Below, one piece after another: positions 23,504-63,999 of a stretch of DNA of 64,000 nucleotides (its first letter is position 1; each line of letters begins with the position of its first letter). The position numbers and the translations under genes are program-made. Source of the DNA: Aegilops tauschii subsp. strangulata (lineage: Eukaryota; Streptophyta; Magnoliopsida; Poales; Poaceae); assembly GCF_002575655.3 (NCBI RefSeq), contig NC_053037.3, positions 325,031,294-325,095,293 on the forward strand, read 5' to 3'. The notes under the pieces were generated by a model. That model ran no database searches. It was not told where the DNA came from and worked only from the letters and a program-made list of their open reading frames with translations.

Positions 23504-23506
23504 AGT

Positions 23507-30778: not shown

Positions 30779-32517
30779 AGTACCCATCCCAACTATAAAC
30801 CCCTACTTCCGTAGTACCACCCTGTAATGTTTCCTACAATGCACTCCACTATGGTAGAGCCCATAATGGCTTGTGGCTGCACACGGAAGCGTCTAGGCAT
30901 GAAGTATCATACGATCCCTTTGAGCCTGAGTGGCATTGCATAGGGTGATCTCACGGGTCCTCCGGGATCCCCTAGGGCAAGCACAAGTTTCTCCAGGTGC
31001 CCCAACCATTCCACCTAGAGTTGTGTTAATGTTGCCACCTTAAGGTTAACCCAAAGTTATTATTTCTCTCTCATAACTTCCATGAATCTCACATACCCCC
31101 GTCTACAAAAGCATGGCTAAGCAAAACTAACTTAACAAGAAATGATAATTCTCGAGGTGTTGTCAAGGGTGATAGGTTCCTACCTCAATGAACTACAGAT
31201 CATAACCACAATCTCAATTCCTACTCATGCAAATATTGGGTGGAACTAATGCATGGTAAAAACTAGGTAATAAAGTATGATCAAAGTGTGAACTTGACTT
31301 GCCGACAATCATTGCACTCTAGGGATTGGTAATACTCAGCCTCACACTCTGGACAATCTAGCATAATCAAACAATAACATACATAAGCAAACAATCAAAG
31401 ATCCAAAAAGAAAGCAAAGAAAACAATTGTGAAAAACTCAAAAAAAACAAATAAAGCTTCTAGACAGTGGCATGTTTTTAAGTGTAGCAAAATTATGTGT
31501 TTTGATCTTAACAGAAAGTACACGTCATAAGCTTCTATTTGCAAAATGAATCAATTAAACTGGAGTTATAAAACTCAAGTTATGGCCTTACGAAGTTTAA
31601 ATACAAATCTGATCGAATTCAAATATTAAAACTTTCAAAAATATTTTTAGTTTGGTTCTCTAGATAGATGGGATTTTTATGAAATAGTGGGAAAAAGTAT
31701 CAACTGAATTTGATTTGTAGATTTTAAAATATGCTAAAAGAAAAATCTCATAGAAATCTGAAATTGGAATTCTACTGAAAAGATTAAATATCGGCCAGAG
31801 ACCAAGTGACGCTCTCTGGTTAGCTGGAAGGTGTTTGCTATGAAGTGAAGAAGCGCACGATCGATTTGTAAGGAAAACGAATCGTGGTGGCTAAAAAAAT
31901 AAAACCGCAAGCCGGTTCGATCTAAACCGAAGAAAACCGATCTAACTGAACCGTATTTTTCTAACAGGGGTGAACAGAGGCGCAGGTGACTTACAGAGAA
32001 GTACGAGCGTGGACGACGGTGGTGGGGTGGCGATTCTGGTGATCGTGGGCGGCGACAAAAGTGTCGGGAGGATGCAGCGATGAGTGCGTCGTCCGATGGT
32101 GATGATCGGTGACGACGGACGGCGACGTAACGAAGTGGTGAACCCTGGGCACTCCGGGTGTGCTGGTGAAAACAGTGAGGTCGGGATGGCTTCTCTAGAT
32201 GAAAAGAGGTCGCAAGATCATGTCACAACAAATCTCACGATCGAGAGAAGTCAAACTACAGAAGGAGGAGGCTTGGGATGGCTCACTAGCGTGGGAAAAC
32301 GGCGATGAACTGCAGCGGCTTCGGCGAGATTGGAACAACGAGTGCGTGCGATTTGGGGTCATGCGTATTTATAGGACATAAAGCTTGGGGAGGGGGTTGA
32401 CTCGGAAGGTGAAATCCCGAGTTCAAATGAACTCGGGTGCGTGGCGTGAACGAGCAGGGCTCTGCCCTGTTCATGGGGAAGAAGAAGGTACATGGGGCCC
32501 AACGCTAGCGGGAGAGA

Positions 32518-42741: not shown

Positions 42742-45700
42742 TCATGAAGTCGATGGAGGAGCGCCAATGTTGTTGGGGTCGGTTATTGAAGTAGGGCCTG
42801 CCGCAGTGTCATCCAAGTCTTCATTTTCATCAGTCTCGCGCGATGAAGAATAAGAGCTGGCCACCAAGTGAGGAACTTTGACCTTCTTGAATTTCTTCGA
42901 AGGAGGCCGAGACCAGTCAAAGTCCTGCTTGAAGCCCATCTATTTTAGATCTTCTTCACCGTAGAGATGAGATAGAACAGCCTAGGTGCGATCAGAGACT
43001 TCATGGAGATAGTAATGGTTCTTCTTCACTGAATTCTAAGTGATGGTCATGTTCTGAAGAATTGAACCAAACTTTCTCTTGACCCACTTGTGGTTGCGAG
43101 CGACCTTCTGGTGAAGACTGAGGAGAAGCTCACGATAAGTCATCACCCTTGGAGCTCTGCCTTGAGGATTTTGCTTAGAAGCATTGGCGGCAGAGTCATG
43201 AGTGGCAGAGTCATCATTTGTGGAGTAGGATGCAGCTTTGCGAAACTGTCCATCCAATGGACGAATGCCTTCATCAATAATTGCAGTCGCCTTGCCCTTC
43301 TCATCAGCTGAGGAAAATGTCCGCTTAAGGACTTCAATAGGGGGCAAGTAGCTGCCATGGTTATGAGTGTCAGCCTTGTAATTGATTGAAGACCTTGATT
43401 TAAGGAATCTCATAATCCAAGGAGCGTAAGGCTTCAACTCAAAAGGTGACAATGAAACATTTGCCAGAGTCCTTATGAAGAAATCATGGTAGTTGATTGG
43501 AACGCCATGAATGATGTTGAATAGCAAATTCTTCATGATGCCAACGACTTCTTCATTAGAATCATGACCTTTGATAGGACTCAGGGTCTTGGTCAGAATT
43601 TGATACACAGTCCTCGGCACATATTGCAATTCCTTCACAAGGAATTTGGTTCTGGGGGCTTGACCAGGCTTCAGCGGCTTCATCAACACTTGCATGTAAT
43701 GATCAGATAGCTCAGGTTCATGGTAGATGAGTTGCGCACCTTCAAGGGGAGGACTGACAGGCAGGGCATGAAGCAATTCAGAGGCCGGTGCTTTATAGTG
43801 CATGTTTTCTGTCATCCAATCCAGCACCCATGAATTCACATCTTCAGCATTGCCGGTGATATGCAGTGTGGCGTAGAACTGAAGAATTAGTTCTTCATTC
43901 CAGTCAACAATGTCAGTGCAGAAGTTGAGCAGCCCTGCGTCATGAAGAACACTAAGGACTGGGGTGAAGCAAGGCAGCGACTCTATATCAACATGAGGAA
44001 TATGCTCATGGTCGAAGATCTTGTCTTTGTCGAAAAGGAGTGAAGAGTAGAAGTTCGCCTGGCTAGCTATCCAGAAACGCTTCCTTCGAAGACGAGCAGA
44101 GTCATATGGGTTGTAGTCAGTGAAGAATACATGCTTGTGAAAGAAGTCATCAGCCTTGAACTTTTGCTTCTTTGAGAAAGGATTCTTCAGCTTGGGCTGA
44201 GGAGTATCAGTCAATGTCTTCCCAGCCTCAGGAATCACAGCCTCAGCAGCCGCAGGCTGAGGAATTTTGGTGCCAACATCTTCAGTGGCAGCCTGGGTCT
44301 CCATCTCTTCAGCAGTGTTAACATCAGCACTAGTGGCTGGAATAACTTCAGGAACGGTAAGAAGTGAAGCTTGAGGTTCATCAGAGCCCATATGAATTTC
44401 TTCAGTCTGGATAGGGGACTGAGGAATCTGTTGCAGTGGGGTGAACATTGGAGAGTTAGGGTGATGACTTTCCCAATAGTCATCGTTCAGAACAGGAGTG
44501 GTGCTCCCAATATCCACGTCTTCATATTCTTCATTAATTTCTTCAACGCCTGCCTCTTCAGCGGTGAACTGAGGCATGGGCGATGATACCTGTGGGGTTG
44601 AAGGGATATCATCCACTTCAATTTCTTCGTCCAACTGCTCTGACGAAGCAACAGAAGGAATATCTTCATCAGATCCGCTTGGGATCTCATAATCCTCACC
44701 AAAGGGAACGATTTCCTTTGATGGCATGCTCGAAACAGGAATATCATCAATTGGATTCTCAAATGAGCTTGTCAAAGTCTTTGTCTTCTTTGGTGCTGAA
44801 TACTCTGAGGAAGCAGATGCTTTCCTTTTCTTCACAGCTGCTCGCTCCGCAGCTTTGGTTTTCTTCGCTTCTGAAGCAGAAGGAAGAACTGGACTAGGCG
44901 TTGCTGCAGGAGGAGCAAAGGAAATTGGTTCATTTTCCTCAGCCACAACCGATGCAGTTGCCCTGGCTTGTTCAGGTTCTTCAGGCGTAGCGACAGATGC
45001 TTCAGCTGGCCTGGCTTGCTCTTCAGGCACAACACTAGTGGTTGCCCTGACAATTTCATCAGCGGCTGGAATAGCTTCATCAGCCCTGGTACTTGCAGTT
45101 TCATCAGCAGCCTGATTTTCATCAGCGGTGCTGGCATGTTCTTCAGTGGGCTGAGCAGATGCTTCAGCCTGAGGAGATTCATGTCGCGATGAAGCAGCAA
45201 CATTTGAAGTGAATTTTTCAGCTATCTTTACAAATCTAACTTTGGCTCCAAGCCAATCTGCATGGTAGGCTTGGAATTCATCATTGAGTCCCTTGATCTC
45301 TGCTTGTGCAACCACAAGTTCATCAGTTTTCATTTTGACAATGTTTTTCTTCAGAAAGCGCTCCTTTTTGTATTGAGCTTTCTTTAGCTGTCTGGCCTTC
45401 TCATATTTCCACTTTTCTTCGCCAATGAAGGCGGTCAGCATGTGACTCTGGCCAGGAGTGAGCTTGAAGTCTGGCATAGGTGTGTAGGGGTCCTTGTGCC
45501 AGAGATCAATGTACTCAAGGATCAACTTGGGATCCAGACGAAGAGGCACTTCACTTCCTTTGGCTCTAGCGACCCTTTGTTGTCTATCTCTGATGATTTC
45601 AGCGAGTTCTTCATCATCAGCTTCGTCATCACTGGACGGCACATGAAAGGCAACCTGCTTCTTGTGAGGACTTGGTCTAGAGCCTCGTCCAGCAGTGGCC

Positions 45701-46336
45701 TTGGTCTTCAGCAGAGTGGGGCCTGTTCAGGATTGCAGAGGAGCTGAAGAACTTGCAGTGGCTTTGACACGAGGCAAGATGCACAGGTGCTGAGGACTTT
45801 GCCGGAGGAGCTGAGGGCTTTGCAACTTGAGAAACTGGAGTAGCGTGAGGAATTTGCCGTGAGGGCATTGATGAGCTGGGCCTTGAGGGCATTGTTGAAG
45901 AACTGGGCTTGCGAGTTGGCTTCTTTTGCATAGATTTCCTGGGCTTGCTAGCAGAAGCCTCAGCAGTAGCAGCAGCAGAGTCTTCATTGAATTTCCTCAC
46001 TGCTTCTTCAGCCATTTTGGCTAGCTTCGCTTGCCATTTTGCCCATTCATCAGGATAGTCCTCACCGCGCTTGAGGCTGGTGGGATCAGCTTCTTGGCCA
46101 GGTGCCAATGGAGGTCTTGGGCAAGGAGGGTGAAGAGCGAATTTCTTCATGTACTTTGGAGTGACATACCTGTACTTCCTCCATTCCCGTGCCCATCTCC
46201 GTTCAATCCTTTGTATGCACACCTTGCCCTGATTCTTGTTCTCCTTGCCATGTTTGGCCTCATCAGGAGTACAATATTCTTCATAAATGTCCTCAGGGAT
46301 TTCAAATGCTGTGTTGACTTCCAGTTTCTTGCCTCC

Positions 46337-46857
46337 TGTTGGGGATATTACCACTGGGCGTAAACCGGCCAGGAGAGGCCGGGTTAACCCCATGGTAGTT
46401 CACTATATCTGAAGCCCATGAAGACAGACGGTGACGCTTTATGAAGGCCCAGGGCCCAAAGCCGGTTTAAGGCCTGTGGACATAAACCGGCATTGATATG
46501 TAAACTTGTGTTGTAAGATAGAAAGAGTAGAGACCGAGCCGGACACGTTTATGAGCCGGCCTCGGGATTCTGTAAACCGACGGGCGTCAACCCATGTATA
46601 TAAGGGGACGACCCGGCGGCGGTTCAAGAACAACAGACAATAACTCGAGACTCAGGCAAAGCGTATTCGCTCCCTGGTCATCGAAACCCTAGCAATTCCA
46701 CAACAACTGGATTAGGCTTTTACCTTCACCGCAAGGGGCCGAACCAGTATAAACTCTCTGCGTCCCTTGTCCTCTTTAACCCCTTTAAGCTAACCCGCGC
46801 GATGGCTCCACGACTAAGTCCTTTCCTTAGGACATCTGCCGTGACAAAACCACGATC
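46337..46857 (+). repeat. 5' LTR of element M
   Basis: 521 bp, colinear with 59338-59858. The last two bases read TC instead of CA. TATATAAG at 46597-46604 in CATGTATATAAGGGGACG is the LTR TATA box. Confidence 0.92.
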
Positions 46858-46859
46858 GT

Positions 46860-46877
46860 TGGCGCCCACCGTGGGGC
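46860..46877 (+). other. Primer binding site of element M
   Basis: TGGCGCCCACCGTGGGGC lies two bases after the 5' LTR. It differs from the tRNA-Asp site of elements B and H and from the initiator-Met site of E and F. I do not assign the tRNA with certainty; tRNA-Arg is the usual primer reported for RIRE2-like Tat elements. Confidence 0.75.
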
Positions 46878-46945
46878 TATCACACGATGGTTTCGAGTTC
46901 TTAGAGGGCAGCTTCGAAGGACTCAAGGGCTACGCTGTAGGCCGG

Positions 46946-49365
46946 ATGACCAAGAGTCATCGCGGCAAGGTCTACATCGACGATGCAGGCTGGGGCCCCG
47001 AGGCCGGCTCAATCGAGTATGGGTACCAGGTCCCCTTTGGTGGCATACACGTTTTCATTGGCAAGATCGGCGAACCGGGCCCTGAGCCGGACATCTGCAC
47101 CGACCTCATCGAAATGGCTCAGCGTGCGAGATCTGCCCGGGTCAAGCCTGTCATGAAGCGTGCCTTCGTGGGAGTCATCCACAGAGGGGAATCTGAGGAT
47201 AGATCGGACTCTGGTGGTGAAACCGTCGTTTATTCCGGCGATGAGTCATCGACTGGAGAGATCGAATCGTTATATCAGTTGCAAGATGGCCGGATTGGGG
47301 GCAGTTCCGATGGCGATAGTATTCCGGACCCCTTTGATCTGCCAAACCGGGTTGCGATCTTCATGGCTGGTACACAACCAGCGCTCCACTCTTCGACCGC
47401 AGCGGCGGTGATTTCCGGATCAACAGCGGTGACAGCAGCCAGGGCAGGAGGCCCTGTGTGACCGCCAGCTCTGGTTCTGTCTGATTTGTTTGACACTTTG
47501 GCAACGCTGATGGCGGAGGTTAACCCGGCGGATCAAGACGCACATAATGCAGAGATCGCGAAGGTGAAAGATCAGATCACCCAGGCCAAGGCCGACCTGG
47601 CAGCAGAGGATACCAGGATGGCTGCAGAATGAGCCGCATTGGATGCACAGGCTTACCGGCTTATGCTGGATCAGAGTGCATCGAATGATGTCCTGAAAAG
47701 GAGGTACCGATCTCGCCTGCCGCCGGTTTATGAAGCTAGGAACCTCTTTAATACCCCAGGAGCAGGGACCAGTAATCCGCCGGTGGTAAACCGGGCGGAG
47801 GCACCTGGAGCGGGGGCGCCGGTTCAGCCGCATTCCGTGGATCCGCCTCGCCAGAACAACATTGTAACACAGCATGTCCCGACACCACCAGGTCATTACT
47901 CTAACCCGATGGACAACATTGTCGCTGCCGCTTCATGGCTGGCGGCCATCCCGATCGAAGGCGAGTCTCCGGCGGCGGTCGAGACACATCGGGTTAGGGA
48001 GCTTCTTCAGACAGCCTTGGTTCAGCAGGAGGCTTATTCATATAGTCGCGATCAGATCCATTCCACTCCCCACCCAAGCCGGAGTTACAGCAGGCGTATG
48101 GATGAACCGGCAGTGTCAAGCAACGCGCGGAACCGTGATCCGCCCCGTGGCAATAACCCGGTGGGTTGTGCTGGTGATGCTCAGGAGGTGGTGGACCGGG
48201 TTCGAGCACGTAGAGAGGCCGAGTTAGCGACGCAGCATGAAGCCCGTCAGCTTACTCCGGTTCGTCCAACCACGTCGGTGGAACCAGAAGTTACTTCTAG
48301 TTCTTTGGGAGTACCGTGTCTTGTCCCAGCGTTGCGCAATGTGCGCCTGCCCAAGGATTTCAAAGGCCCGCGCAAGGTGCCGAATTACACCGCCGATTTG
48401 TCCCCTGAGACATGGGTCAAAAGCTATGAGATGGCCATGGAGATGCTGGATGTGGACGATGCGGCGTGTGCGAAATACTTCACTATGATGCTAGAGGGGA
48501 CGGCCCGCACTTGGCTGAAGAGCTTACCGGCTAATTCTATCAGGTCATGGGGCTGAGTTGAGAGCCCGGTTTATCCAGAATTTCAAGGATGCATGCAAGC
48601 AGCCCATGTCGATTATGGACTTAGCTGCCTGTGTCCAGGAAGAAGGAGAGTCAACAACCCGTTGGGTGCGCCGGGTTTCAGAGATTTTGCATTCATCGGA
48701 CCGCATCAACGCTGATACCGCAGTTTTAACATTGGAAGGCAATTGCCGGTTTGAACCCCTGAAGTTGAAGTTGGGACGGCTCAAACGTCATTGTAATGAC
48801 ATGGGAACTCTCATGGCCGCTCTGGTGAAGTATGCCGACTCTGATAGTACCAAGGATCCCGAGTCTGACGATGATAAGACAGGGAAGGGAAAAAGGAGCG
48901 GCAACGCCAAGGGACAGCACCACAACCCGGCGGGTCATGGAAACGGCGGCAAGCGTAAGGCGGACCACAATTTAGACTTTGTGGCTAATACCAACACACA
49001 GGACATGGGCCGGCGGCGTAAGGGTAAACCGCCCCAGCGCGGTGGAGGGCCAAGTCCTAATCCGGACCGCATGTCTTATCTATTGAATCAGCCTTGCCCA
49101 AAGCATGGGACGAAGGAGAACCCGTCTACACACCTCTGGAAAGATTGTTACATCATGCAAGAGTTCAAAAACTCTGATGTTTCCGGTATGATCATGGACC
49201 GGGTGGCGGTTCAGGCTCCGGATCTCATGGGCCGGGTTACGGTGGTTATAATAATCATGGGAATCAGCAACAGCAGCAGCATCAATCGGGTTACCAGAGC
49301 AACCTGAAACAATTGAATAGCGGGCAGTATCATGTCTTCACCACTAGCCTGGACGAGCGCCATTA
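46946..49365 (+). pseudogene. Gag of element M
   Basis: The likely start is the ATG at 46946 (MTKSHRGKVYIDD); the earlier ATG at 46802 lies inside the LTR. TGA codons at 47459-47461 and 47630-47632 lie in the same frame, an extra G near 48545-48550 shifts it, and a second frameshift lies near 49185. The core around 48340-48760 contains LPKDFKGPRKVPNYTADLSP, TARTWLKSLPANSI and FIQNFKDACKQP, typical of retrotransposon gag, and a later CPKHG-x-THLWKDC block resembles the zinc-binding motif of Tat elements. A Gly/Gln-rich tail ends near 49365. Broken, but every part is recognisable. Confidence 0.85.
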
Positions 49366-49513
49366 AAAGCTTCATAAAAGGGCAGTGAACTCCGTTGAAC
49401 CGGCGGTTCCCCAGTACTTACGTTGGTCGGAATAGCCTATTGTGTGGAGTCGAGAGGATCATCCGCCCCGGGTTGATAATCTGGGCCATCTGGCATTGGT
49501 GGTGGCACCTTAG

Positions 49514-50125
49514 GTGGGAGGTTATAAGTTCACCAAGGTACTCATGGACGGGGGGAGTAGTATCAATATCCTTTATTATGAGACCTTCCGTCGCATGGGG
49601 TTAACAGATAAAAATCTTAAACCGTCCAATACGGTGTTCCATGGTGTGGTGCCTGGTAAATCAGCATATCCTGTTGGTAAAATAGCTCTGGAGGTGGCTT
49701 TTGGAGATAAGCATGACTCAAGATCAGAAACTTTGACCTTTGAAGTGGTGAAAATCAAAAGCCCGTATCATGCCCTGTTTGGACGGCCAGCTTATGCTAA
49801 GTTTATGGCACGGCCTTGTTATGTCTATCTGCAGCTCAAGATGCCAGGTCACAAGGGAACTATAACAGTGCATGGGAGCCGCAAGATCGCTTTGGAGTGT
49901 GAAGAAGGTGATGCGACTTATGCTGAGTCGATTTGTGCAACAGAAGAGTTGAAGTTTTACAAAGACAATGTTGATCCGGCAGATATGACTTCATTGAAGA
50001 AACCAACTACAGAGCATGATCCGGCCCTGAAGTTAAAATCGGCTGATGAGACTAAGCTTGTTGACTTTGTGCCCGGCGATTCGTCCAAGCAGTTTAACAT
50101 CAGCGCTAACTTGGATCCAAAATAG
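49514..50125 (+). pseudogene. Aspartic protease region of element M
   Basis: Open stretch with the retropepsin motif VLMDGGSSINIL near its start, where the usual DTG/DSG is DGG, and HALFGRPAY further on, corresponding to the ILGRP-type segment. TAG at 50123-50125 separates it from RT in the same general reading direction; the codon is probably a changed CAG. The linker 49366-49513 carries further stops (about 49431 and 49509). In an intact element it would cleave the gag-pol polyprotein. Confidence 0.82.
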
Positions 50126-51092
50126 GAAAGCACGCTCACCGAGTTCATCTGTGAGAATCGGGACATCTTTGCGTGGAAGCCTTCTGACATGCCAGGTGTA
50201 CCGAGAGAACTCGATGAGCACACTCTCAATGTTGATCCCAAGTATAAACCGGTCAAGCAGCTTCTCCGCCGGTTCAATGAAGAAAGACGCAAGGCTATTG
50301 GAGAAGAAGTAGCCAGGCTCTTGGCGGCTGGATTTAGCGTTGAAGTATTTCGTCCTGAGTGGTTGACTAATCCAGTGCTGGTCCTTAAGAAGAACGGTAC
50401 TTGGTGTATGTCTGTGGACTACACAGATCTCAACAAAGCTTGTCCAGCAGATCCTTTTGCCCTCCCCCGTATTGATCAAATTATTGATGCTATGGCGGGT
50501 TGCGAGCGTTTAAGCTTTTTGGATGCATATTCTGGTTATCATCAGATCAAAATGGCAGTTAAGGATCAGGAGAAGACAGCCTTCACAACTCCCTTGGGAG
50601 CCTTCTGCTATGTGTCCATGCCCTTTGGGCTCAAGAGTTCCCAGGTGACTTATCAACGGTGTGTGCAGAATTGTCTTCATAAACAGATCGGCCACAATGT
50701 TCACGCCTATGTGGATGATATTGTGGTGAAATCAAGGAAGAAGGAGACATTGATTGATGACCTGAAGGAAACCTTTGATAACCTGCGGGTTTATAAAATG
50801 ATGCTTAATCCGGCCAAGTGCGTCTTTGGTGTACCTACAGGCAAACTCTTGGATTTTTTGGTGTCTAACAGGGGCATTGAAGCTCATCCGGAAAAGATCA
50901 AAGCCATCACCTCCTTGGCCAAACCGAAGTGTATCAATGATGTTCAACGCCTGGCAGGCCGGATTGCCGCGTTGAGCCGGTTTATCAGTCGCCTGGGCGA
51001 GAAGGCCATCCCTTTATATCAGATGCTGAAGAAAACGGATAACTTCGTCTGGAGTGACGCCGCTAATGAAGCATTTGAGGACTTAACGGCAG
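50126..51092 (+). pseudogene. Reverse transcriptase of element M
   Basis: Follows protease after one stop. The RT blocks are all present: KKNGTWCMSVDYTDLNKACP, SFLDAYSGYHQIKM, VSMPFGLKSSQVTYQR and the catalytic HAYVDDIVVKS with both aspartates intact, then the connection region to RLAGRIAALSRFISRL. A small indel near 51080 shifts the frame into RNase H. This is the best preserved RT in the window; the palm itself has no stop. Confidence 0.9.
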
Positions 51093-53326
51093 TTGGCTAA
51101 TTCGCCGGTTCTCGCTGCTCCGGTTGACAAGGAGCCATTGTTGCTATATGTGGCAGCTAATGCCCGGGCTGTTAGTGTGGCTATTGTGGTGGAACGCAAG
51201 GAGGCAGGAAAGGAATATCCGGTTCAGCGGCCGGTTTACTATATTAGTGAGGTACTTATTGAGTCCAAGCAGAGGTACCCGCATTGGCAGAAATTGGTGT
51301 ATGGAGTTTTCATGGCAAGCCGAAAGCTTAAGCAATATTTCCAAGGTCATCCCATCACGGTGGTCAGCTCTGCTCCTTTGGGGGATATAATCCAGAACAG
51401 GGAAGCAACTGGCCGGATTGCTAAGTGGGCTATCGAGCTTGGGCCTCACGGGTTGAAATACATACGCCGAACGGCGATCAAATCTCAGGCACTTGTGGAT
51501 TTCATCAATGATTGGACAAAACTACAAGCACCAGAAGAGAAGCCGGATCATACTTATTGGACTATTCATTTTGATGGGTCCAGGCAATTGGAGGGCTCGG
51601 GGGCTAGAGTCGTATTAACTTCCCCACGAGGTGATAAGTTTTGTTATGTTCTCCGTTTACTGTTCCCTTGCACTAACAATGCAGCTGAATATGAGGCTTT
51701 ACTCCATGGTCTTCGGATGGCTAAGGAGATGAACCTAAGCCGAGTTAAGTGCTTCGGTGGCTCGGATCTGGTGGCTCAACAAGTGTCCGACACTTGGGAT
51801 TCCAAGGACCCACTCATGGCAGCATATCGTCATGAGGTGGATATTGTTGCAGGTCACTTTAAAGGTTATCAGGTGGATCATGTGGACCGGCGGAAGAATG
51901 AGGCGGCGGACGCTTTAAGCCGCCTGGGTTCCCAACATAAACCGGTTCCACCTAATGTCTTCCTGGATGTTTTGCATAATCCGTCCGTCAAGCTCCCTGG
52001 TGAAGAGGATTTGGCTATTCCTGATCCGGAAGCTCAGTTGGTGGCGGCTCTTCATGTTATCCCGGATTGGACGGTTCCATATCTAGCGTATATGAACCGG
52101 GGCGAGTTACCAGAGGATGAAACTTTGGCCAGGCAGATAATCCGGCGGTCCAAGTCCATGACTATTATCAATGGAGAGTTACATCATTGCAGTGTGACAG
52201 GGGCGTTTCAACGATGTGTGTCTCCTGAAGAAGGCCGTGAAATTTTGCGTGAGATCCACAAAGGAGATTGTGGTCACCACGCCGGTTCAAAGTCTTGGGT
52301 GGCCAAGGCGTTTCGTCACGGTTTCTATTGGTTGACAGCTCATGCTGATGCCGAGGACTTGGTCAAAAGATGTGATGGCTGTCAGAAATTTTCAAGGCGC
52401 CCTCACGTACCAGCTCAAGAATTGAGAATGATTCCAATCACCTGTCCATTTGCAACTTGGGGGCTGGATATGGTTGGGCCTTTCAAGAGATCCAAGGGCA
52501 AGCAAACCCACCTTTTGGTGGCGGTTGATAAGTTCACGAAGTGGGTGGAGGCAGGGCCAGTTAGTAAGTGTGATGGAGCTACGGCGGTTCAGTTCATCAA
52601 AAAGGTGATCTTCCGGTTTGGCTTTCCACACAGCATTATAACAGACAATGGTACCAATCTGTCAAAGGGTGCCATGGAGGAGTTCTGTCAACATGAGCAC
52701 ATCTGGCTTGACGTGTCATCAGTGGCTCACCCCCAGTCCAATGGTCAAGCGGAGAGGGCCAATCAAGAGATCTTGTGAGGCATCAAACCCCGGCTTATGG
52801 TTCCTTTGCAACGGACGCCGGGTTGTTGGGTTGAGGAGTTACCTTCTGTGTTATGGAGCATCAATACCACACCCAACAGATCGACAGGATACACACCGTT
52901 CTTCATGTTTTATGGAGCAGAAGCGGTTCTTCCTAGTGACATCCGTCATGACTCACCTCGTGTAGCGGCATATGTTGAAGCTGACAACGAGAAGGCACAG
53001 CAGGAAGCTCTTGACCTGTTAGATGAGGAGCGTGACATGGCAGCAGCCCGTTCGGCGATTTATCAGCAAGATCTGCGTCGTTATCATAGCCGCCGGGTTA
53101 GAACCAGGACCTTTCAAGAAGGCGATTTGGTGCTTCGACTCATCCAGGATCAGACGGATATGCACAAGCTATCCCCCCTTGGGAAGGACCCTTTGTGGTC
53201 AGCAAGAATCTGCACAACGGGTCATACTACCTAATCGATGTTCGAGAGCGCAAAGACTCAGGTAAATCGGAGGACGAGACCAACCGGCTGTGGAATATTG
53301 CTCATCTTCGGCCCTACTATGCTTGA
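51093..53326 (+). pseudogene. Dual RNase H and integrase of element M
   Basis: The first part (to about 51450) is the standard Ty3 RNase H region with YYISEVL and FMASRKLKQYFQ, apparently degenerate. A second RNase H follows (about 51550-51960): WTIHFDGS, NNAAEYEALLHGLRMA and RRKNEAADALSRL. Integrase starts with an HHCC finger (HKGDCGHHAGS, CDGCQKF) and has D, D and E in WGLDMVGPF, IITDNGTN and NGQAERANQE. TGA at 52776-52778 lies right after the catalytic Glu; the same frame continues from 52779 through TGYTPFFMFYGAEAVLPSD. A frameshift near 53185 precedes the C-terminus at 53326 (LRPYYA). Dual RNase H is a Tat-lineage hallmark. Confidence 0.9.
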
Positions 53327-54700
53327 GCCATAGGCTCTGCTTATGTACATATTATGACATTGTATATATTATGATCAATATAATAAACCGGAGCCTCAGC
53401 TAAAGCGGGGTATCTGTTGTTTTTCTTACATCTTGTGTGGTTACATGGAGCTTTTAAAGCGGCGTCCGGTTTACCCCTTGATTTAGCTTTTCAAAGCTTT
53501 ATATTACATCACTTGGATGCTTGGTCGTATCGGAACCATAGCTACACCTCTTGATCGGTGCAATGCCACAGCATCACTTGGGGGCTTGGTCGTATCCAAA
53601 CCATAGTCACACCTCTTGATCGGCTCAAATCCAAATCAATCCGGGGCCAAAGAGAGTGTTGTAAAGCAATAACTCAAACATAGGCACCCACTGAGCACAG
53701 CTCAAAATGTTACTTGGGGATTCTTTGCTGTCGAAATGAACTAAGAATCTACACTTGTAATAGGCTATCAAGCCATGGCTTGGAAGCCTGGTGTATACAC
53801 CTAAAACCCCGGGTTAACCTGCCTATTTAAGTAAGTCACTCCGCCCAGGTAAACCTGGTATGACCCTTCGAACTTTGACAAGTTACTCTAAAATAAAGAC
53901 CCTGAACTTGTCAAGTTAAAACAATGATTGGTTAAGGATTGAGGACCATCTTAAAAGGCTTTGCAAAAATGTTTTAACTCAGTGGCTTGGCAAGCCATGA
54001 AAAGCGTCGAATTTGGGGCCTGGCAGCCCGTGAAAAGCCTCGACTACAACGGTTTTTTATTTGCCTTTTGCTAAGTTTTTCTTTCTTTTGATAAGATTTG
54101 TGATGTTTTCAAACCGGTGTTTATCAACCCGGTTAGGCTGTCAACTACAAGTTGTCAGTACATGATTAAGTTATAATCCGGAGACTATCAGCCCGGTCTG
54201 GTTTTGACTCAAAGTCACCAGTATGGAATAAACCGGTATTTATCACAACCCGGAACGGTTTTATTGTAAACCGGCATCATACAACAGGAGTTATTTATTC
54301 TCCGGAGTAGGGTTATGACCCTCACTACAAAGTTGGTCAGCCAACATTATGCCTAAAGGTCACAGGTATCATATATTTCCGTATTTGGTTATCTTTTACA
54401 ACCTTGGTTATAAACCTTGGTCATATATATATTTGGGTGTTGTGACCCGCCTGGTGGTAAACCGCCAGGGCGCTTTAAGCTTCTTATCTGTAGGGATGGC
54501 TTGAATAAATGGCTATGGATTATGAATATCATATCTTAAGCATGGCGGATTAGCAAGCATCAGTCGCAGATAAATATGCACGAAGGCATAACATACCAAG
54601 TATTTTAACTAGCCTATTACAAGGCGTTTCAGTGCCCAACAGGATAATTGTTTTCTCAAATACATGTTGCAGCATGTAGAAGACTAAACCGGCCTCCGGA
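53327..54700 (+). other. Post-pol spacer of element M with short tandem repeat
   Basis: No supported ORF. Two copies of a 64-bp unit (starting about 53509 and 53573, each with TCACTTGG, GCTTGGTCGTATC and CACCTCTTGATCGG) lie just after pol. The rest has scattered AACCGG/CCGGTTT motifs and ends where the antisense gene's stop codon lies. Confidence 0.7.
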
Positions 54701-57700
54701 TCATGATTCATCACCAGCTCGGCCTGACGGCTGCGGATCATCTTGCACCGGTTCACCTCCCTCCTCTCTACCCAGTGGCTGGAAGTCAATAGTTGCCCAG
54801 TCGATCCCAGTTAGGGCTTGGAATACAGCTTCATCGCTTATAAGCGTGGACAGTTCAATGTCAGGGGCATAAGTGTGCTTACGGATTGGTGGGATAAGAT
54901 TTTGTGCTTCTGGAATTGGTGCAGCAACCCGTCTGTTCTTGTCATCATAACTCGCCTGGTAGTATGAGAGATCCGCCGCTTCAGCCAGTTGACAAGCCAA
55001 TGGACGTACTTCCCGGTTTATGGTTCAGAGATCATCATTGCCAAATTCTGTTCCGTCTTCTTTCAAGCTGGGATAGCCTTGGGCCGCTTCCACTGGATCA
55101 AAGTCAGGTACCCATGCTTTTGCCCGGATTAGTGCGGTCAGAGCGCCCGTTCTTGCGGCAGACTTTTTTAGCTCTTCTACCCGGGCATGAAGCATAGATA
55201 ACCTTTCTAAGGTTTCCTTGATCAAGGTGGGAGGAGGATTATTATGTGAAGCGGTATAGATGATCCGCTGCGCACCGGTGTACAACTGCTCTATCAGAGT
55301 GTAGGCAGCCTTCAACTTCTTCTGCACATCAGAGCCCAGATGGCTAATGCGAGTTCCTGCACTATTGTACACATCAGTAAACCGACAACACATGGGAAGA
55401 CATGTTGAAAGTATTAAGGAAAAGATGTTTACCGAACACAGCAGCAGTCATGGCATGAATCTGCCGCTTTACACCGGTTAGTTCATCAACCACCGGCTTA
55501 AGAGCTGCTTCTGCGTTCTCGGCCCTTTTTATCAAAGTGGATTTTTCAATCTCCCAATCCGCCCGCTCCTTGTTGAAGCCCTCTTTCAGTTTCTCCATAT
55601 CGCCTAGAGCGCTGGTCAACTCTTCCTTGGCTTTGGAGGTTTCGGCTTGCTGGGATTTGAGGTTCTCTTGCAGATCAGCGGTTTGGCTTTCCTTCTTACT
55701 CAGCTCAGCCTGTAAAGAGACAGATATATCATGAGTTGACAGTACATATTTGAAGTACCAAGCCCATAACAAGTTATGCCCTTGGTACTTGGGGGCTAAT
55801 GCATATTTGCTCTTTATCAGAAATTTTTACAAGTCCCAAGCACAATACAAGTATTAATCTTGGCACTTGGGGGCTAATGTGTGTTTGCTCATAATTGCTG
55901 CTATGGAAATTCTTCTACAGTCCCGGTTCAGCTTTATAAAGTTAAACTGGCCCTTGGGGACTATACCAGTGAAAAAAGATGAAGTGTTGCAAATATAAAG
56001 ATTGTTATTAAAAGTCCCGGTTTAGATTGATATCTTAAACCGTCACTTGGGGGCTACTGGAGTTGATATTTGGAATTTACAAAGAAAGACATTTAAGCAG
56101 AGTTGAGTATTAATTACCTCATATCGCTCTTTCATCATATTTACCAAACCGGCTTCATAGTCACGGCTGGTGTACAGACGGTTCAAGAAGCCGGAGTGAA
56201 GGTCTTGAGCACTAAGATGGGCATAGTTTGACAAATCGGCGTTCCATTTGCCTTTGCCGATAGCAGAGAGCTCGTCCTTGGTAGTATGCTTTGACAAAGC
56301 GATAGGATTACCAGGAGTGGTGTGGCCAATACCAGTAATCATAATATCATCCTCTTTACCATCAGCAACTTTTGCTGGAGTTGGTGGTTTTTCGGTAGCC
56401 TTAACTGGACTAACCGGTTTGTCATCAGTCGGACAGGGCTGGTTGGCTGGTTAGCATGGCTTGTGGTGTCAACTTCTATCTGCTCAGCAACAAAGTCATG
56501 ATCTTGAGGCGGTGGGCCATTAAGCATGGCGTCAACATTGGTCTCTTCAGGATCTAGAGTTTTTTCCGGTTCAACAGCCACGTTATCATCGACCGGTTTA
56601 TTCAACCGAGCCTTCTTGCTAGGTCTGGGCTTGGCGCTGAGAAAAATAAACATGATGATCAGTACAGTATATAAAAATAACATATCAAGGATAAAAACAA
56701 GTGTATGGCTCACCCAAGAACTGTTTTGAGGGGTGGAAGCTTTGTGGCCGATGACTCGCCAGAAGATGAGTGAGAAGTACCCTGATAATTTGAATCAGAT
56801 GGGTTAAGAGGCTGACGAAAACAACCCGCTTTGGGGCATGAAGTGTCAAGGGGATGAGAGACCTCTGTTCGGCGTTTCCGAACCGGAGTGTTCGGTAAAC
56901 CGGCGGAGGTAACTACCTGGCCGCTGTGCCGGGTTGTGCGATGAGCTTCGTGCTGATGTGTCTTTAATAGAAAGTTTGGGTCCAAGTAAGCAAGGGGGTG
57001 AGAAAATTTTACTTTCCGGTTTGCTCGACGGATTTTTGATGTTGGCAGAGGATCTGAATCGGAGGAAAGAATAATTACCTCTACATCATCAGCATGACTG
57101 CCTTCAGCGTCATCCTGATAATAATCATTGTCAATGAGGTGTATGAAAAATGAACCAAGAGAGTAAAGTTCTACCTCTGATTCCGGGTTACCCATATCGT
57201 CATCAGCTGGTAGCTCGGCGGATGCAGTGGTCTTTTTCTTGCCAGGTTTCTTAACAACCTTGGTCTTTGGGCGAAGTGGCTTGGCCGGTTTGTCTTGCGG
57301 CTTTGCCGGTTTTTCTTGTGGTTTCTTGCTCCAGAACGGATCATTACCCTGTCAGAAGATAATCACAATTTCAGAAAATATTTGGACAGAAGCAACTTCA
57401 GGTAAAAAGATTATATGATTCTTACAGCTGGCGGTTTGTTGAAAGTGCAGAAAGGGAGTAGTCCGGTCTGGCCACAGACAGCCTCCGGTTCATTCAACAT
57501 CTTCTTTACAGCCTCGGTAACTTCCGCATCTGTAAGCTAAATGTCAATGTGTCGTTGAGCATCCTTCAAACTCCCTGTATACTCACACATCAAACCGGAG
57601 CGCCGACTTAAGGGCAGAATACTCCAGCTTATCCAGCAACAAGCAAGGTTAACTCCTGTCAAACCGTTCGCCATGAAGGCTCTAAGCTTTGATAACTGAG

Positions 57701-59030
57701 GGGCATAGTTGGCCCTTTCTTTTGCAGTCAACCTCTGGGGAAAAGGATCCGTGTTACTAAGGCGGTGAGGGCGGTAACCCGGCAAGGGGTTCTCATCGGT
57801 TGGAGATGTGTCTTTGCAGTAAAACCAAGTCTGGTTCCACTCTTTGGGGTGACTGTGGAGCTTGGGATGAGGGAAAGTAACTTCCTTCCTTTTCTGAACC
57901 GCCATTCCACCCAATTCCATATTGGGTCCATCCGTGAACTCTGTGCGACGGTTTAAGTGAAAGAAGTCCCTAAACAATTCAACCGTGGGCTCCTCTTGTA
58001 GATAAGCCTCACAGAAGACTTGGAAGTGGTAGATGTTGGTCACAGAGTTTGGACCGATGTCTTGAGGGTGCAGCTGAAAGCTGGCCAGTACATCTCGGAA
58101 AAATATTGAACCGGGTGGGCTGAAACCTCGACCCAGGTGATCAGCAAACACGACTACCTCTCCATCCTTGGGAGTAGGAGGATTTTCCGGGCCAGGGACC
58201 CTCCAGTGGATGGCATCTTTCTTGGCTAAAGCGCCCATTTTAACATAGTTGTTTAACTGCTCTTCGGTTACTCGAGAAGGAGCCCAATTACATTCATAGA
58301 CTTGCTTGGCCATGGCAATGAAAATCTGAAACATGATTATTGCCGGTTTAGGATTTGTAGTGGACAACTGTACAGCGGTATAAGGATCTAAGCATATTGT
58401 TAAACCGGAGCTGGTTATATGTAAACCGGAGTCTGACAATGGAGACAGTACAATGGTGAATGCAGTGGCGGTTCAACAGGGGACTAATGGTATCTACTGG
58501 GTCATCATTTTTTTCTATGAAGTTAAACCGCCTAATCTGGTATTGAAGATATAAGTTTAAAGATGCGTAAGTGAAGGAAAAACAAGTTTCACAGCTTGGC
58601 TTGGTAATTTCAGATCTACCGTGCGTTGGAAAATCAAAATAAATTCAGACCTAATTTCAAGAGTTTGAACAGTTCAGCAAGGTTCAGATGAGTTTTGTGT
58701 AAAGGAACAGATCTAACGAAAAGGGGATTATAGCTACAGCCGCGTAAGAAATATCGGATCCAGCTAGTTGTTTATGCTAATGAAAAGAACAGGAAAGAAC
58801 AATGGCGGAGATTGGATAGACTCCGATGAACATTGAAACCCTAATGGTGGATCTAGAGCAAAGAAAAGAAGAACTCACTGATGATGAGGGAACAGCAGAG
58901 GAGCGCCGCACTTTTCTGGTCCAGTCAGGTTGATGCAGCGGCCGTTGCGGAGGCAGAAACGAAGGTCAACGGTGGCGGCGGAGCTCCAAAGGCCGGACAT
59001 CGCGAGGAAGAAGATGAGGTGAAGAGATGC
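54701..59030 (-). pseudogene. Spliced antisense gene of element M (putative gypsy-type transposon domain plus coiled coil)
   Basis: Minus-strand gene with inferred exons: leader about 59030-58879; 58325-57426 (ATG at 58313, MAKQVYECNWAPSRVTEEQL); 57348-56714; 56636-56118; 55709-55433; 55356-54701. All five introns begin GT and end AG (553, 77, 77, 408 and 76 bp), and all four coding junctions keep the frame. Residues about 1-160 match the plant 'putative gypsy type transposon' domain: HWRVPGPENPPTPKDGEVVV, then RGFSPPGSIFFRDVL, then CEAYL. The middle is low-complexity; exons 5 and 6 are largely coiled coil (AELSKKESQTADLQENL). Damage: TAG at 57537-57539, a frameshift in exon 4, TGA at 55025-55027. 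The function is unknown. It opposes gag-pol, so transcripts would overlap the sense RNA's 3' part. Confidence 0.78.
55780..56055 (+). repeat. Degenerate repeats carrying CTTGGGGGCTA purine motifs
   Basis: CTTGGGGGCTA occurs at about 55790, 55866 and 56046, with CTTGGGGACTA near 55952, each in a similar context of about 75-95 bp with AAGTCCC or AGTCCCGG. The array lies in intron 4 of the antisense gene. The motif resembles the polypurine tract of element A (CCCGGGGGCTAC). Confidence 0.65.
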
Positions 59031-59063
59031 GGGGGGTGGGGGAATGGAAAGACCCCCTGGCCC

Positions 59064-59071
59064 TATTTATA
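59064..59071 (-). promoter_or_regulatory. TATA box for the antisense gene of element M
   Basis: Minus strand CCTTTATAAATAGGGCC, followed by a C-rich leader, a GC-rich leader exon and a GTGAGT donor at 58878. Spacing fits a plant promoter independent of the LTR. Confidence 0.65.
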
Positions 59072-59337
59072 AAGGCAAAAAGATAAGCGTCAGGCGCGAA
59101 AATCAAGGAGCCCAAAATTTGGATATGAGGCGGAGCTGTCGCCTCGATTGCCGGAGGCTCATTAATGAAGGTGGGTTATACACAGTTTTAAAATAACAGA
59201 TGATGTCATGGCGGTTTACCATGGTCCTAGAAGATGACGTCACGGCGGTTTACAAGATTACGTGAAGATGTGGAACAAGAAATTTGCTTAAGTATTGAGG
59301 ATTGACATGAACCAGTTCAAACCAATCTGGGGCCTAA

Positions 59338-59858
59338 TGTTGGGGATATTACCACTGGGCGTAAACCGGCCAGGAGAGGCCGGGTTAACCCCATGGTAGT
59401 TCACTATATCTGAAGCCCATGAAGATAGACGGTGACGCTTTATGAAGGCCCAGGGCCCAAAGCCGGTTTAAGTCCTGTAGACATAAATCGGCATTGATAT
59501 GTAAACTTGTGTTGTAAGATAGAAAGAGCAGAGACCGAGCCGGACATGTTTATGTGCCGGCCTCGGGATTCTGTAAACCGACGGGCGTCAACCCATGTAT
59601 ATAAGGGGACGATCCGGCGGCGGTTCAAGAACAACAGACAACACCTCAAGGCTCAGGCAAAGCGTATTCGCTCCCTGGTCATCGAAACCCTAGCAACTCC
59701 ACAACAACTGGGTTAGGATTTTACCTTCACCGCAAGGGGCCGAACCAGTATAAACTCTCTGCGTCCCTTGTCCGCTTTAACCCCTTTAAGCTAACCCGCG
59801 CGATGGCTCCACGACTAAGTCCTTTACTTAGGACATCTGCTGTGACAAAACCACGACA
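59338..59858 (+). repeat. 3' LTR of element M
   Basis: 521 bp, TGTTGGGGATATTACC to ACCACGACA, followed by CCTCC. Preceded by a purine-rich AATCTGGGGCCTAA tract. The interval 59072-59337 between the antisense promoter and this LTR holds no ORF. Confidence 0.93.
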
Positions 59859-59957
59859 CCTCCCTTCTGAGGTTTCTTTCCATCTGCCATATTCTTCAGC
59901 TGAGGATTTTGAACAATTGAGTTCTCTGAAGAGGTGTGCAATTTTTCTTTGAGGAAC

Positions 59958-61384: not shown

Positions 61385-63999
61385 TCAAAGGACATTCGAA
61401 GATTCTAAGATATTTAGCTCACACCACAACTTGCTAAATCTCTTCTCATCAAACGGCTTTGTGAAGATATCGGCTAGCTATTCTTCAGTCTTCACGTGCT
61501 CGATGGAGATGTCGCCCTTCAACACATGATCATGAAGAAAATGATGACGAATCTGAATGTGCTTTGTCTTCGAGTGCTGAACTGGGTTATGAGCAATCTT
61601 GATGGCACTCTCATTGTCACAGTAGAGAGGCACATTCTTCACATTGATGTCGTAGTCCTTGAGGGTTTGCTTCATCCATAGCAATTGAGCACAGCACGAA
61701 CCAACAGCAATGTACTCAGCTTCAGCAGTAGAAAGTGATACGTAGTTCTGTTTCTTCGAGGACCAACATACCAAGGATCGTCCAAGGAAATGACATGTGC
61801 CTGATGTTGACTTGCGGTCCACACGATCACCAGCATAGTCAGAGTCTGAATATCCAATGAGATCAAAAGCCGAGCCCTTGGGATACCGTAATCCAAGTGT
61901 TGGAGTGTGAGGTAGATATCGAAGAATATGCTTCACAGCCTTATGGTGTGATTCCTTCGGTGTAGCTTTAAATCAGGCACACATGCAAACACTAAGCATA
62001 ATATCTGGCCTAGATGCACATAAATACAATAAAGAGCCAATCATGGAGCGGTATACCTTTTGATCGAAGTCAATACCATTTTCATCAGTGCATAGATGGC
62101 CATTTGTGGGCATAGGGATTTTGACTCCTTTGCAATCTTGCATGCCGAATATCCTCAATACATCCTTGAGGTATTTCTCCTGAGATATGAAGATGCCGTT
62201 TCGTTGTTGACGTATCTGAAGACCTAAGAAGAATTTCAATTCTCCCATCATAGACATTTGATATTCTTCACTCATCATATAGGTAAATTCATCACTGTAA
62301 CGTTGGTCAGTACAGCCAAAGATGATATCATCAACATATATTTGGCACACGAATAATTCATCATCATAAGTTTTGGTGAAAAGAGTTGGGTCAAGTTAAT
62401 CGGGTTTGAAGCCTTTCTTCATGAGGAATTCCTTCAAAGTATCATACCATGCCCGAGGGGCCTGCTTGAGGCCATAGAGGGCCTTATTGAGTCTGAAGAC
62501 GTTGTCAGGATGCTTTGGATCTTCAAAACCTTGGGGTTGAGCAACATATACTTCTTCCTCAAGCTTACCATTGAGGAATGCACTTTTCACATCCATTTGA
62601 TATAAGATGATATTGTGATGGTTAGCATAAGCAAGTAATATGCGAATAGCCTCAAGTCTAGCAACAGGTGCAAAAGTTCCATCGAAATCAATTCCTTCAA
62701 CCTGTGTGTAGCCTTGAACTACAAGTCGTGCCTTATTCCTCACCACAAGGCCATTTTCATCTTGCTTGTTGTGGTAGATCCATTTTGTGCTGATGATATT
62801 GTGCTTGCGAGGGTCTGGTCGCTTGACAAGTTCCCAGACATTATTGAGCTTGAACTGATGTAATTCCTCTTGCATAGCTTGAATCCACTCAGGCTCCAGA
62901 AATGCTTCATCTACCTTAGTGGGCTCTGTGATAGAGACGAAAGCAAAGTGCCCACAAAAGTTAGACAAATGTGAAGCTTTTGAGCGTGTGAGAGGACCTG
63001 GTGCGTTGATGTCGCTGATGATTTTCTCAATCTGCACTTCATTTGCAACGCGAGGATGTGCTGGTTGACGACGACGAATTTGCTCAGCATTTTCTTCAGA
63101 GCCATTTTCTTCAGGTGCACTAGCATGATGTTCTTCACGATCTGGAATGACTTCTTCAGCAGATTCTTCAGTAGGAATGACATCCTCAGTAGCCTTGAAC
63201 TTTATGGTTTCCTCAGGTGATTTTTCATCTAGCACAGGAGGTAGGTGCTCTCTTTGCGAGACATTAGCTTCATTGAACCGCACATCTACAATTTCAACAA
63301 CCTTGTGGTGAAAGTTGTTGAAGACTCTGTAGGTGTGCGAGTCCTTTCCGTAACCAAGCATAAAACCTTCATGTGCTTTCGGTGCAAATTTAGAATTGTG
63401 ATGAGGATCTCTAATCCAACATTTAGCACCGTAGACTTTGAAATAACTCACATTGGGTTTCTTGTCAGTGAGGAGTTCATATGCGGTCTTTTTGAAGAAT
63501 TTGTGAAGATATACCATGTTGATGATGTGGCATGCAGTGTCAATTGCCTCAATCCAGAAGTGACGAGGCATCTTGTATTCGTCAAGCATAGTGCGAGCCA
63601 TCTCAACAAGAGTCCGGTTCTTGCGCTCCACGATGCCATTCTGCTGAGGAGTATAAGGAGCAGATAACTCATGAGTAATACCAAGTTCATCAAGATAGTC
63701 ATCAAGACCAGTGTTCTTGAACTCAGTTCCATTATCACTTCTGATGTGCTTGTCTTCACACCAAAGTTGGTTGAAGCCCTCGAGGAAAATCGTTTGAAGA
63801 CTTCCTGCACTTCACGTTTGTAAGTGACGATATGCACCCATGTGTATCGAGAGTAATCATTAACAATAACAAAGCCATATAGAGATGCTTCATTAGTGAA
63901 TGCAGAATAGTGATTAGGAACAAAGAGATCCATGTGAAGCAATTCAAATGGACGAGTGGTAGTCATGATAGTCTTTGCAGGATGCTTGGCCTTGGTCAT
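61385..63999 (-). pseudogene. Copia pol of element L: integrase, RT and RNase H
   Basis: Minus strand, entering from the window edge. Integrase core: FELLHMDLFVPN and, after a frameshift near 63775, a frame into [15 protein letters not shown] with the catalytic Glu. Then [20 protein letters not shown], an acidic linker, and RT from [13 protein letters not shown] through [12 protein letters not shown] and [13 protein letters not shown] stop and frameshift near 62350-62396 precede the catalytic QIYVDDIIFG, which is intact. RNase H has YSDSDYAGD and YCDNESAIKIA. TAG at 61478-61480 precedes the conserved end (LADIFTKPF) and the final stop at 61385. Domain order integrase-RT-RNase H proves copia. 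Gag and protease lie outside the window. Confidence 0.92.

Follow-up and report, generated by a model that had tools for sequence, protein, structure and literature searches.

A decayed copy of a conserved multi-exon antisense gene in a Tat/Retand-type retrotransposon of Aegilops tauschii

We analyzed a stretch of 64,000 nucleotides from the genome of Aegilops tauschii subsp. strangulata (contig NC_053037.3; hereafter the window), which harbors a complete 13.5-kb long terminal repeat (LTR) retrotransposon of the Tat/Retand type at 46,337-59,858. Between pol and the 3' LTR of this element lies a multi-exon gene in antisense orientation (54,701-59,071, minus strand) with a TATA box, a leader intron, five coding introns, an N-terminal PF04195 domain and a C-terminal coiled coil. 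We are highly confident that it represents a conserved, spliced protein gene. Judged by their conservation in 29 other genomic copies, the splice sites, the TATA box and the reading frame are more than a product of chance. The copy in the window is itself broken by two in-frame stops and one frameshift. Taken as a whole, the window probably contains a decayed copy of an antisense protein-coding accessory gene, the product of which may be a nuclear multimerising regulator of the element.

The features of the gene and its host are collected in Table 1. The TATA box at 59,071 is located 267 bp internal to the LTR boundary at 59,338, and transcription may also begin at other sites. The summed coding exons comprise 2,916 nt (including the stop and one base beyond it) or 972 codons, which becomes 992 if the 60-nt intron I4 is retained. 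The original prediction, made from the letters of the window, had announced a TATA box, a leader intron and GT-AG introns on the minus strand, all of which are present where it placed them, and its figure of about 990 codons agrees with the I4-retaining form. It counted five introns. The introns are indeed all of the GT-AG type; we place a leader intron plus five coding introns, and two further optional introns (A and B) had gone unreported. The frame is kept across all five coding junctions, where four had been claimed. The two stops and the frame-changing length difference in exon 5, which lies between 56,450 and 56,390 in the window copy, had been missed. Despite these lesions the five introns that we took as constitutive (leader, I3, I5, I6 and I7) keep GT-AG in the window copy. 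When the window and the 29 copies are aligned, all 30 sequences share the main ATG at 58,313. We did not accept an ATG further upstream, at 59,000, as the start codon, since the window is the only one of the 30 to have it. A 57-nt intron around the first stop (57,586-57,530) was also discarded, as relatives encode protein across that stretch.

Table 1. Features of the antisense gene and its host element, in window positions. Bootstrap intervals of dN/dS, the ratio of nonsynonymous to synonymous substitution, are in parentheses; paired counts for introns are donors/acceptors kept in the 29 other copies.
Feature	Position	Strand	Remarks
TATA box TATAAATA	59064..59071	-	same 8-mer in 26/29 other copies
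Leader exon	58879..59040	-	predicted; start approximate, ~30 nt from TATA box
Leader intron, 553 nt	58326..58878	-	GT-AG; GT 27/29, AG 27/29 other copies
Exon 2	57426..58325	-	dN/dS 0.19 (0.15-0.23); coding sequence starts at ATG 58,313-58,311
PF04195 (Transposase_28 / TRP28) domain	57951..58154	-	Pfam match
In-frame stop TAG, lesion	57537..57539	-	window copy, exon 2
Intron I3, 77 nt	57349..57425	-	GT-AG; 27/27
Exon 3	57175..57348	-	dN/dS 0.40 (0.23-0.64)
Intron I4, 60 nt	57115..57174	-	GT-AG; 29/28; in frame, stop-free in window, optional in relatives; dN/dS 0.32 (0.11-1.61)
213-nt block (I4, short exon, optional intron A)	56962..57174	-	lowest diversity in gene; diversity scan of copies
Exon 4	56714..57114	-	contains optional introns A and B; dN/dS of constant parts 0.30 (0.17-0.52)
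Optional intron A, 117 nt, in frame	56962..57078	-	GT-AG; 29/28; inside exon 4; dN/dS 0.48 (0.22-1.30)
Optional intron B, 81 nt, in frame	56782..56862	-	GT-AG; 29/29; inside exon 4; dN/dS 0.35 (0.13-1.56)
Intron I5, 77 nt	56637..56713	-	GT-AG; 29/27
Exon 5	56118..56636	-	dN/dS 0.31 (0.18-0.51) before, 0.19 (0.14-0.32) after frame-changing length difference
Intron I6, 408 nt	55710..56117	-	GT-AG; 29/29
Exon 6, coiled coil	55433..55709	-	dN/dS 0.16 (0.11-0.24)
Intron I7, 76 nt	55357..55432	-	GT-AG; 29/27
Exon 7 with terminal stop 54,703-54,701	54701..55356	-	dN/dS 0.25 (0.17-0.33)
In-frame stop TGA, lesion	55025..55027	-	window copy, exon 7
Coding exon spans	58,313-57,426; 57,348-57,175; 57,114-56,714; 56,636-56,118; 55,709-55,433; 55,356-54,704, then stop	-	
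Target-site duplication CCTCC, 5' side	46332..46336	.	sequence
5' LTR	46337..46857	+	TGTTGGGG start; end placed from 3' LTR length
Sense pol open stretch with reverse transcriptase (PF00078)	50126..51100	+	Pfam scan
Sense pol open stretch with RNase H, RVT_3 (second RNase-H-like), integrase zinc finger and core	51087..52778	+	Pfam scan
3' LTR	59338..59858	+	aligned to 5' LTR
Target-site duplication CCTCC, 3' side	59859..59863	.	sequence

A search of the genome (4.10 Gb, 692 contigs), in which 34 of 6,280 DNA candidates were scored, gave 36 matches. Of the 30 loci retrieved, one was the window itself; the 29 other copies have 84.5-94.7% identity. All 29 had a 3' LTR in the retrieved flanking sequence, always with the same relative orientation, and 17 had the end of pol. 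In the constitutive-type introns the splice dinucleotides were conserved in 278 of 290 cells. For random dinucleotides from the same introns the mean was 231 conserved cells, and 13 of 5000 draws attained 278. The contrast with internal GT and AG dinucleotides was smaller in some introns, such as I5 (body GT mean 26.0 of 29; donor 29 of 29).

Selection on the reading frame was evaluated with pooled Nei-Gojobori dN/dS values from 435 pairs, with codon bootstrap intervals that are rough because the pairs are non-independent. The ratio was well below 1 in every exon, and pooling over 767 codons (parts of exons 4 and 5 lie outside the pool) gave 0.22. Control values were 0.90-2.89 in shifted antisense frames and 0.93-1.09 in I6. 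Sense-strand frames of three exons gave 0.92-2.60, save one frame per exon that is discussed below. In the same seven sequences, the window and six copies, dN/dS was 0.23 for the reverse transcriptase and 0.18 for the antisense gene; these are 7 of 11 sequences, the other four fetched stretches containing no matching reverse transcriptase. By this comparison, the antisense gene appears to be selected about as strongly as the reverse transcriptase. The closest third of the pairs (91-97% identity) still gave 0.22, and the closest 5% gave 0.34. Our reading is that constraint acts on the transposing lineages and that copies decay after insertion, under which the rise to 0.34 in the closest pairs is expected. 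The substitution patterns show that purifying selection acted strongly on the encoded protein in copies that left descendants.

Protein searches with exon pieces of the gene returned 99 and 63 proteins, and a search with one of these relatives, P0005, as query returned 62. The organism names given (many entries carry none) were Triticum, Aegilops and Hordeum, and the relatives in wheat and Aegilops are long, open gene models. P0001 matched with an E-value of 6.6e-279 over 98% of the first query. A scan of viral contigs yielded no relative. Coding junctions were tested with the first 153 proteins, using those with an alignment spanning the given junction. The alignments were gap-free exactly at the junction in 60 of 64 cases for I3, 54 of 60 for I4, 45 of 46 for I5, 44 of 50 for I6 and 42 of 43 for I7; in 22, 13, 24, 15 and 24 cases, respectively, each side also had 5 or more of 12 positions identical. 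Insertions placed precisely at the junction and at least 10 residues long occurred three times at I3, four times at I4 and not at I5, I6 or I7.

Among 74 proteins from unnamed sources, 13 reach across a junction. P0005, an uninterrupted protein of 845 amino acids on a 4,258-base contig, passes all five coding junctions without an insert, P0087 crosses I3 to I5, P0127 and P0130 cross I6 and I7, and P0108 and P0141 cross I7. Intron-encoded residues were retained in others: 26-27 residues at I3 in P0004, P0072 and P0082, and 20 at I4 in P0136. Since P0004, P0072 and P0082 read straight through introns, the gene caller used for these sources was probably non-splicing, and we infer that the junction-crossing proteins (P0005, P0087, P0127, P0130 and others) derive from spliced cDNA. 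Furthermore, one wheat contig has four models (P0015, P0016, P0035 and P0044, named isoforms X6, X4, X8 and X7), all starting after the TRP28 domain. The sole differences among them are segments of 20, 39 and 27 residues, located where the window has its 60-, 117- and 81-nt introns. RefSeq isoforms normally reflect RNA-seq support. Several cereal entries that match pieces of the gene (P0015, P0044, P0140, P0099 and P0090) carry names that include M-line assembly protein unc-89, SETD2, titin homolog and cell surface glycoprotein.

The similarity of the N-terminal part to PF04195, already suspected in the original prediction, was borne out by a profile search (E-value 4.2e-19, 69 bits against a curated cut-off of 26.2). 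No other Pfam family exceeded its cut-off in the scanned window pieces of the antisense gene or in the relatives P0005 and P0043, and neither a catalytic transposase family nor, above cut-off, a bZIP family was among the matches of these scans; sub-cut-off matches were mostly coiled coils, with UstYa for one piece. The fold of the TRP28 part was predicted confidently, with a mean local confidence (pLDDT) of 82.9 and a predicted template modelling score (pTM) of 0.82. The middle of the product is charged with short basic clusters. For the C-terminal half, modeled with relative P0101, the prediction was poor (mean pLDDT 57.5, pTM 0.22) apart from the coil, a single predicted helix over residues 107-229 with block pLDDT values of 87-95 over 131-210. 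The modeling thus supports the C-terminal coiled coil, which had also been foreseen.

The segment of the gene with the lowest diversity among copies is a block of 213 nt. In a scan in which the segment length was fixed to the span from the I4 donor to the intron A acceptor and the position was left free, the least diverse segment of the whole stretch was 57,176-56,964 (diversity 0.037, against a mean of 0.107 and a minimum of 0.057 elsewhere), no more than two bases away from that span. At A/T sites the diversity of I4 and intron A was 0.018-0.019, against 0.069-0.134 in the five constitutive-type introns; A/T third positions gave 0.128 in exon 2 and 0.191 in exons 6-7. At G/C sites I4 and intron A had values of 0.031 and 0.054, against 0.099-0.228, and their transversion diversity was 0.007-0.010, against 0.026-0.067. 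Base composition accounts for only part of the low diversity of the block. Two findings argue against a special status: at G/C third positions intron A (0.088) had at least the diversity of intron B (0.073) and of the rest of exon 4 (0.087), and intron B was low as well (0.043 at A/T sites, 0.014 for transversions). Coding constraint on the retained segments may be much of the cause. A second stretch of low diversity (0.029-0.039) was seen at 58520-58461 on the minus strand, inside the otherwise more variable leader intron.

When retained, the intron A segment reads VIILSSDSDPLPTSKIRRANRKVKFSHPLAYLDPNFLLK. With the SUMO-interacting (SIM) and RVxF motifs taken as generally defined, it includes a SUMO-interacting-like motif, VIILSSDSD (57,078-57,049, minus strand), the first codons of which double as the splice donor, and an RVxF-like phosphatase-docking motif, RKVKF (57,015-57,004, minus strand). 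The anchor FSHPLAY was kept in 13 of 168 proteins, one of which matched the strict SUMO-interacting pattern. Leaving P0016 aside, the remaining 12 anchor-bearing proteins keep the SSDSE and KVxF cores, with a variable hydrophobic part (VTII, VTTL, VMSL). Outside the close family the SUMO-interacting reading of the sequence is weak. A splicing switch built on I4 and intron A, in which retention or removal of the 117-nt segment would yield two classes of one nuclear protein that do or do not dock on SUMO and PP1 machinery, and which a sense-oriented gene could not keep through retrotransposition, is a doubtful proposal.

The host element, called Tat-type in the original prediction, was assigned to the Tat/Retand type, and its domain content fits this assignment. 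It has paired LTRs, a 5-bp target duplication, and the RT-RNaseH-INT order of pol domains found in Ty3/gypsy elements. The pol scan also revealed an RVT_3-type second RNase H, which is a mark of the Tat group, and an antisense open reading frame (ORF) with a TRP28 domain is present. The two LTRs differ at 20 of 525 aligned bases, a Kimura two-parameter (K2P) distance of 0.039. At the grass substitution rate of 1.3e-8 per site and year this dates the insertion to roughly 1.5 million years (My) ago. The distance from the end of pol, placed by eye near 53,325, to the 3' LTR is approximately 6.0 kb, inside the range of 2.9-6.6 kb reported for Retand elements in PMC11963269. Two minus-strand open stretches of 896 codons (43036-45726) and 240 codons (45677-46399), which overlap each other, adjoin the element and gave no Pfam match at the thresholds used. 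Elsewhere in the window, direct-repeat pairs at 861-2443 and 7558-9119 (96%) and at 21500-23506 and 28775-30781 (98%) resemble LTR pairs of other elements, and a Copia-type pol piece with RVT_2, SH3 and integrase parts lies at 62396-63811 on the minus strand.

It is well established that antisense TRP28 ORFs characterize Retand elements. The survey of Vicient (2025, PMC11963269) describes an antisense TRP28 gene of unknown function in 97% of the clusters of recent Retand insertions and gives DNA binding as a prediction for TRP28. The window element resembles these elements in an LTR of about 0.5 kb, an internal region near 12 kb (here 12.5), a POL-3'LTR stretch near 6 kb and the antisense TRP28 ORF; the closest rows are Triticum aestivum 10 (LTR 528, internal 11,996) and Aegilops umbellulata 1 (504, 12,140). 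That survey covered ORFs of at least 600 bp, or shorter if they contained TRP28, whereas here a single multi-exon unit is described, together with its dN/dS and the conservation of its splice sites and TATA box. The word 'intron' is absent from the available portions of PMC11963269 and PMC7264820, both of which deal with antisense TRP28 genes, and the best-ranked matches in the open-licence literature included no paper on splicing of this gene. As far as open-licence papers show, our analysis adds to a known kind of gene its multi-exon model, the conservation of its splice sites and TATA box, a constraint like that on the reverse transcriptase and a conserved, optionally spliced block.

By its description, maize Grande gene23 is similar, being an antisense gene between pol and the 3' LTR; PMC7264820 reports its transcription from its own promoter and a nuclear protein, and calls for the study of antisense and spliced transcripts. 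Antisense genes with spliced forms are known from retroviruses, namely HBZ of HTLV-1 (which also has an unspliced form) and APH of HTLV-2/3/4, and the products of HBZ and APH-2 are nuclear according to PMC10186651. HBZ is driven from the 3' LTR and encodes a bZIP factor, whereas the TATA box described here lies in the internal region. The likeness is an analogy in how such genes may work, and homology is not claimed.

The genome also contains a second family with PF04195, represented by eight copies (L001-L008) and by three 10-kb stretches (L009-L011). In L009 the TRP28 frame is antisense to frames that look pol-like. The median dN/dS was 0.37 over 28 pairs of the eight copies, which were picked by domain score and some frames of which run into shifted tails. 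Identity to the window gene was 35-42% over 61-110 residues. Unlike in the multi-exon gene of the window, the domain in L009 lies within one single open frame of 440 amino acids, which suggests that exon structure may differ between Retand families. As members of another PF04195 family, L001-L008 were unsuitable as a set for splice-site comparison and were rejected for that use.

These data are consistent with the following explanation. RNA polymerase II would transcribe the antisense gene independently of the LTR from an internal promoter, and the mRNA would be spliced, with three in-frame introns used optionally. The sense RNA alone would be reverse transcribed. The introns could persist because this RNA carries them reverse-complemented and unseen by the spliceosome, so that the antisense orientation would let a retroelement keep an intron-bearing gene. 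The product, with its TRP28 domain, charged middle and long coiled coil, may act as a nuclear multimerising regulator in transcription, silencing or a pre-integration step. We hold this role only tentatively, at somewhat below an even chance.

A number of observations weigh against this explanation. The frame is damaged in all 29 copies, and a source that still works was therefore not among them. The best relatives are gene predictions, the junctions of which partly rest on the same splice signals, and splicing of the antisense RNA of the window copy is predicted from its letters. Gap-free alignment over 30 residues on either side of the junction was found in only 9 of 64 proteins for I3, 2 of 60 for I4 and 2 of 46 for I5 (39 of 50 for I6 and 34 of 43 for I7); the low counts for I3 to I5 arise because the middle of the gene is rich in indels and contains optional introns. 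At least four wheat models inside the I7 count (P0015, P0016, P0035 and P0044) retain residues derived from I7. Exon 3 and the optional introns are short, with wide dN/dS intervals for A, B and I4, and the control frames of the leader intron gave 0.66-0.72 rather than 1. In each of three exons one sense frame gave a ratio of 0.23-0.34 with stops inside (30 to 515 cells), which we read as a mirror of the antisense wobble position. Neither by sequence nor by fold did searches of the Protein Data Bank (PDB) with the TRP28 domain give a convincing match or a solved relative, and structure therefore points to no particular activity. As for the nuclear role, it is a best guess drawn from other families, namely Grande gene23 and the retroviral HBZ and APH.

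The original prediction had left open whether the gene acts as a protein or as an antisense regulator. A transcript acting mainly as RNA, through double-stranded RNA with the genomic sense RNA and small-RNA silencing or self-limitation, would make the frame incidental. Such an RNA would match, as its complement, the 3' part of the genomic sense RNA, the 213-nt block is more strongly conserved than other parts of the gene, and double-stranded RNA regulation is proposed alongside a protein role in PMC7264820. A purely RNA function would leave amino acids unprotected, and the dN/dS of 0.16-0.40 in seven exons or exon parts is confined to the gene's own frame and absent in shifted antisense frames, which makes this alternative improbable and favors action as a protein over action purely as RNA. 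It is also rather unlikely that a once-useful gene is now hitch-hiking, with selection in the past and the copies in the genome decaying. This would agree with the lesions (stops, exons of changed frame and broken splice sites of the five constitutive-type introns), which number 1 to 11 in each of the 29 copies, with the three in the window copy and with the age of its insertion. The sample of scored candidates is small, however, the low ratios among the closest pairs indicate constraint until recent times, and wheat and Aegilops have relatives with long, open gene models.

The Pfam label of PF04195, 'putative gypsy type transposon', might suggest a foreign mobile element nested in antisense orientation and unrelated to the life cycle of the retrotransposon. 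We consider this very improbable in view of the 3' LTR in the same orientation in the flank of every copy, the lack of another Pfam family above cut-off in the pieces and relatives scanned, and the antisense position of the domain in 97% of the Retand clusters in PMC11963269. That GT-AG signals and open frames came together by chance, without a gene, as the commonness of GT and AG and the three lesions of the window copy might suggest, is refuted by the match to P0001, by the conservation of splice sites and by the dN/dS values. The proposed retained accessory gene is supported for the family, with its conserved splice sites and a dN/dS below 1, but not for the window copy with its three coding lesions. 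Loss of the splice sites in related copies or a dN/dS near 1 across the exons had been named as outcomes that would speak against it, and neither was found.

Treating this gene as single ORFs hides its likely product, a protein of about 970 codons from seven exons. The antisense orientation would have a reason, because transposition would strip a sense gene of its introns. The gene also explains some cereal database entries with misleading names, such as M-line assembly protein, SETD2 and titin homolog, that match its pieces. The analysis provides a testable gene model and a short conserved, optionally spliced block with which its function can be sought.

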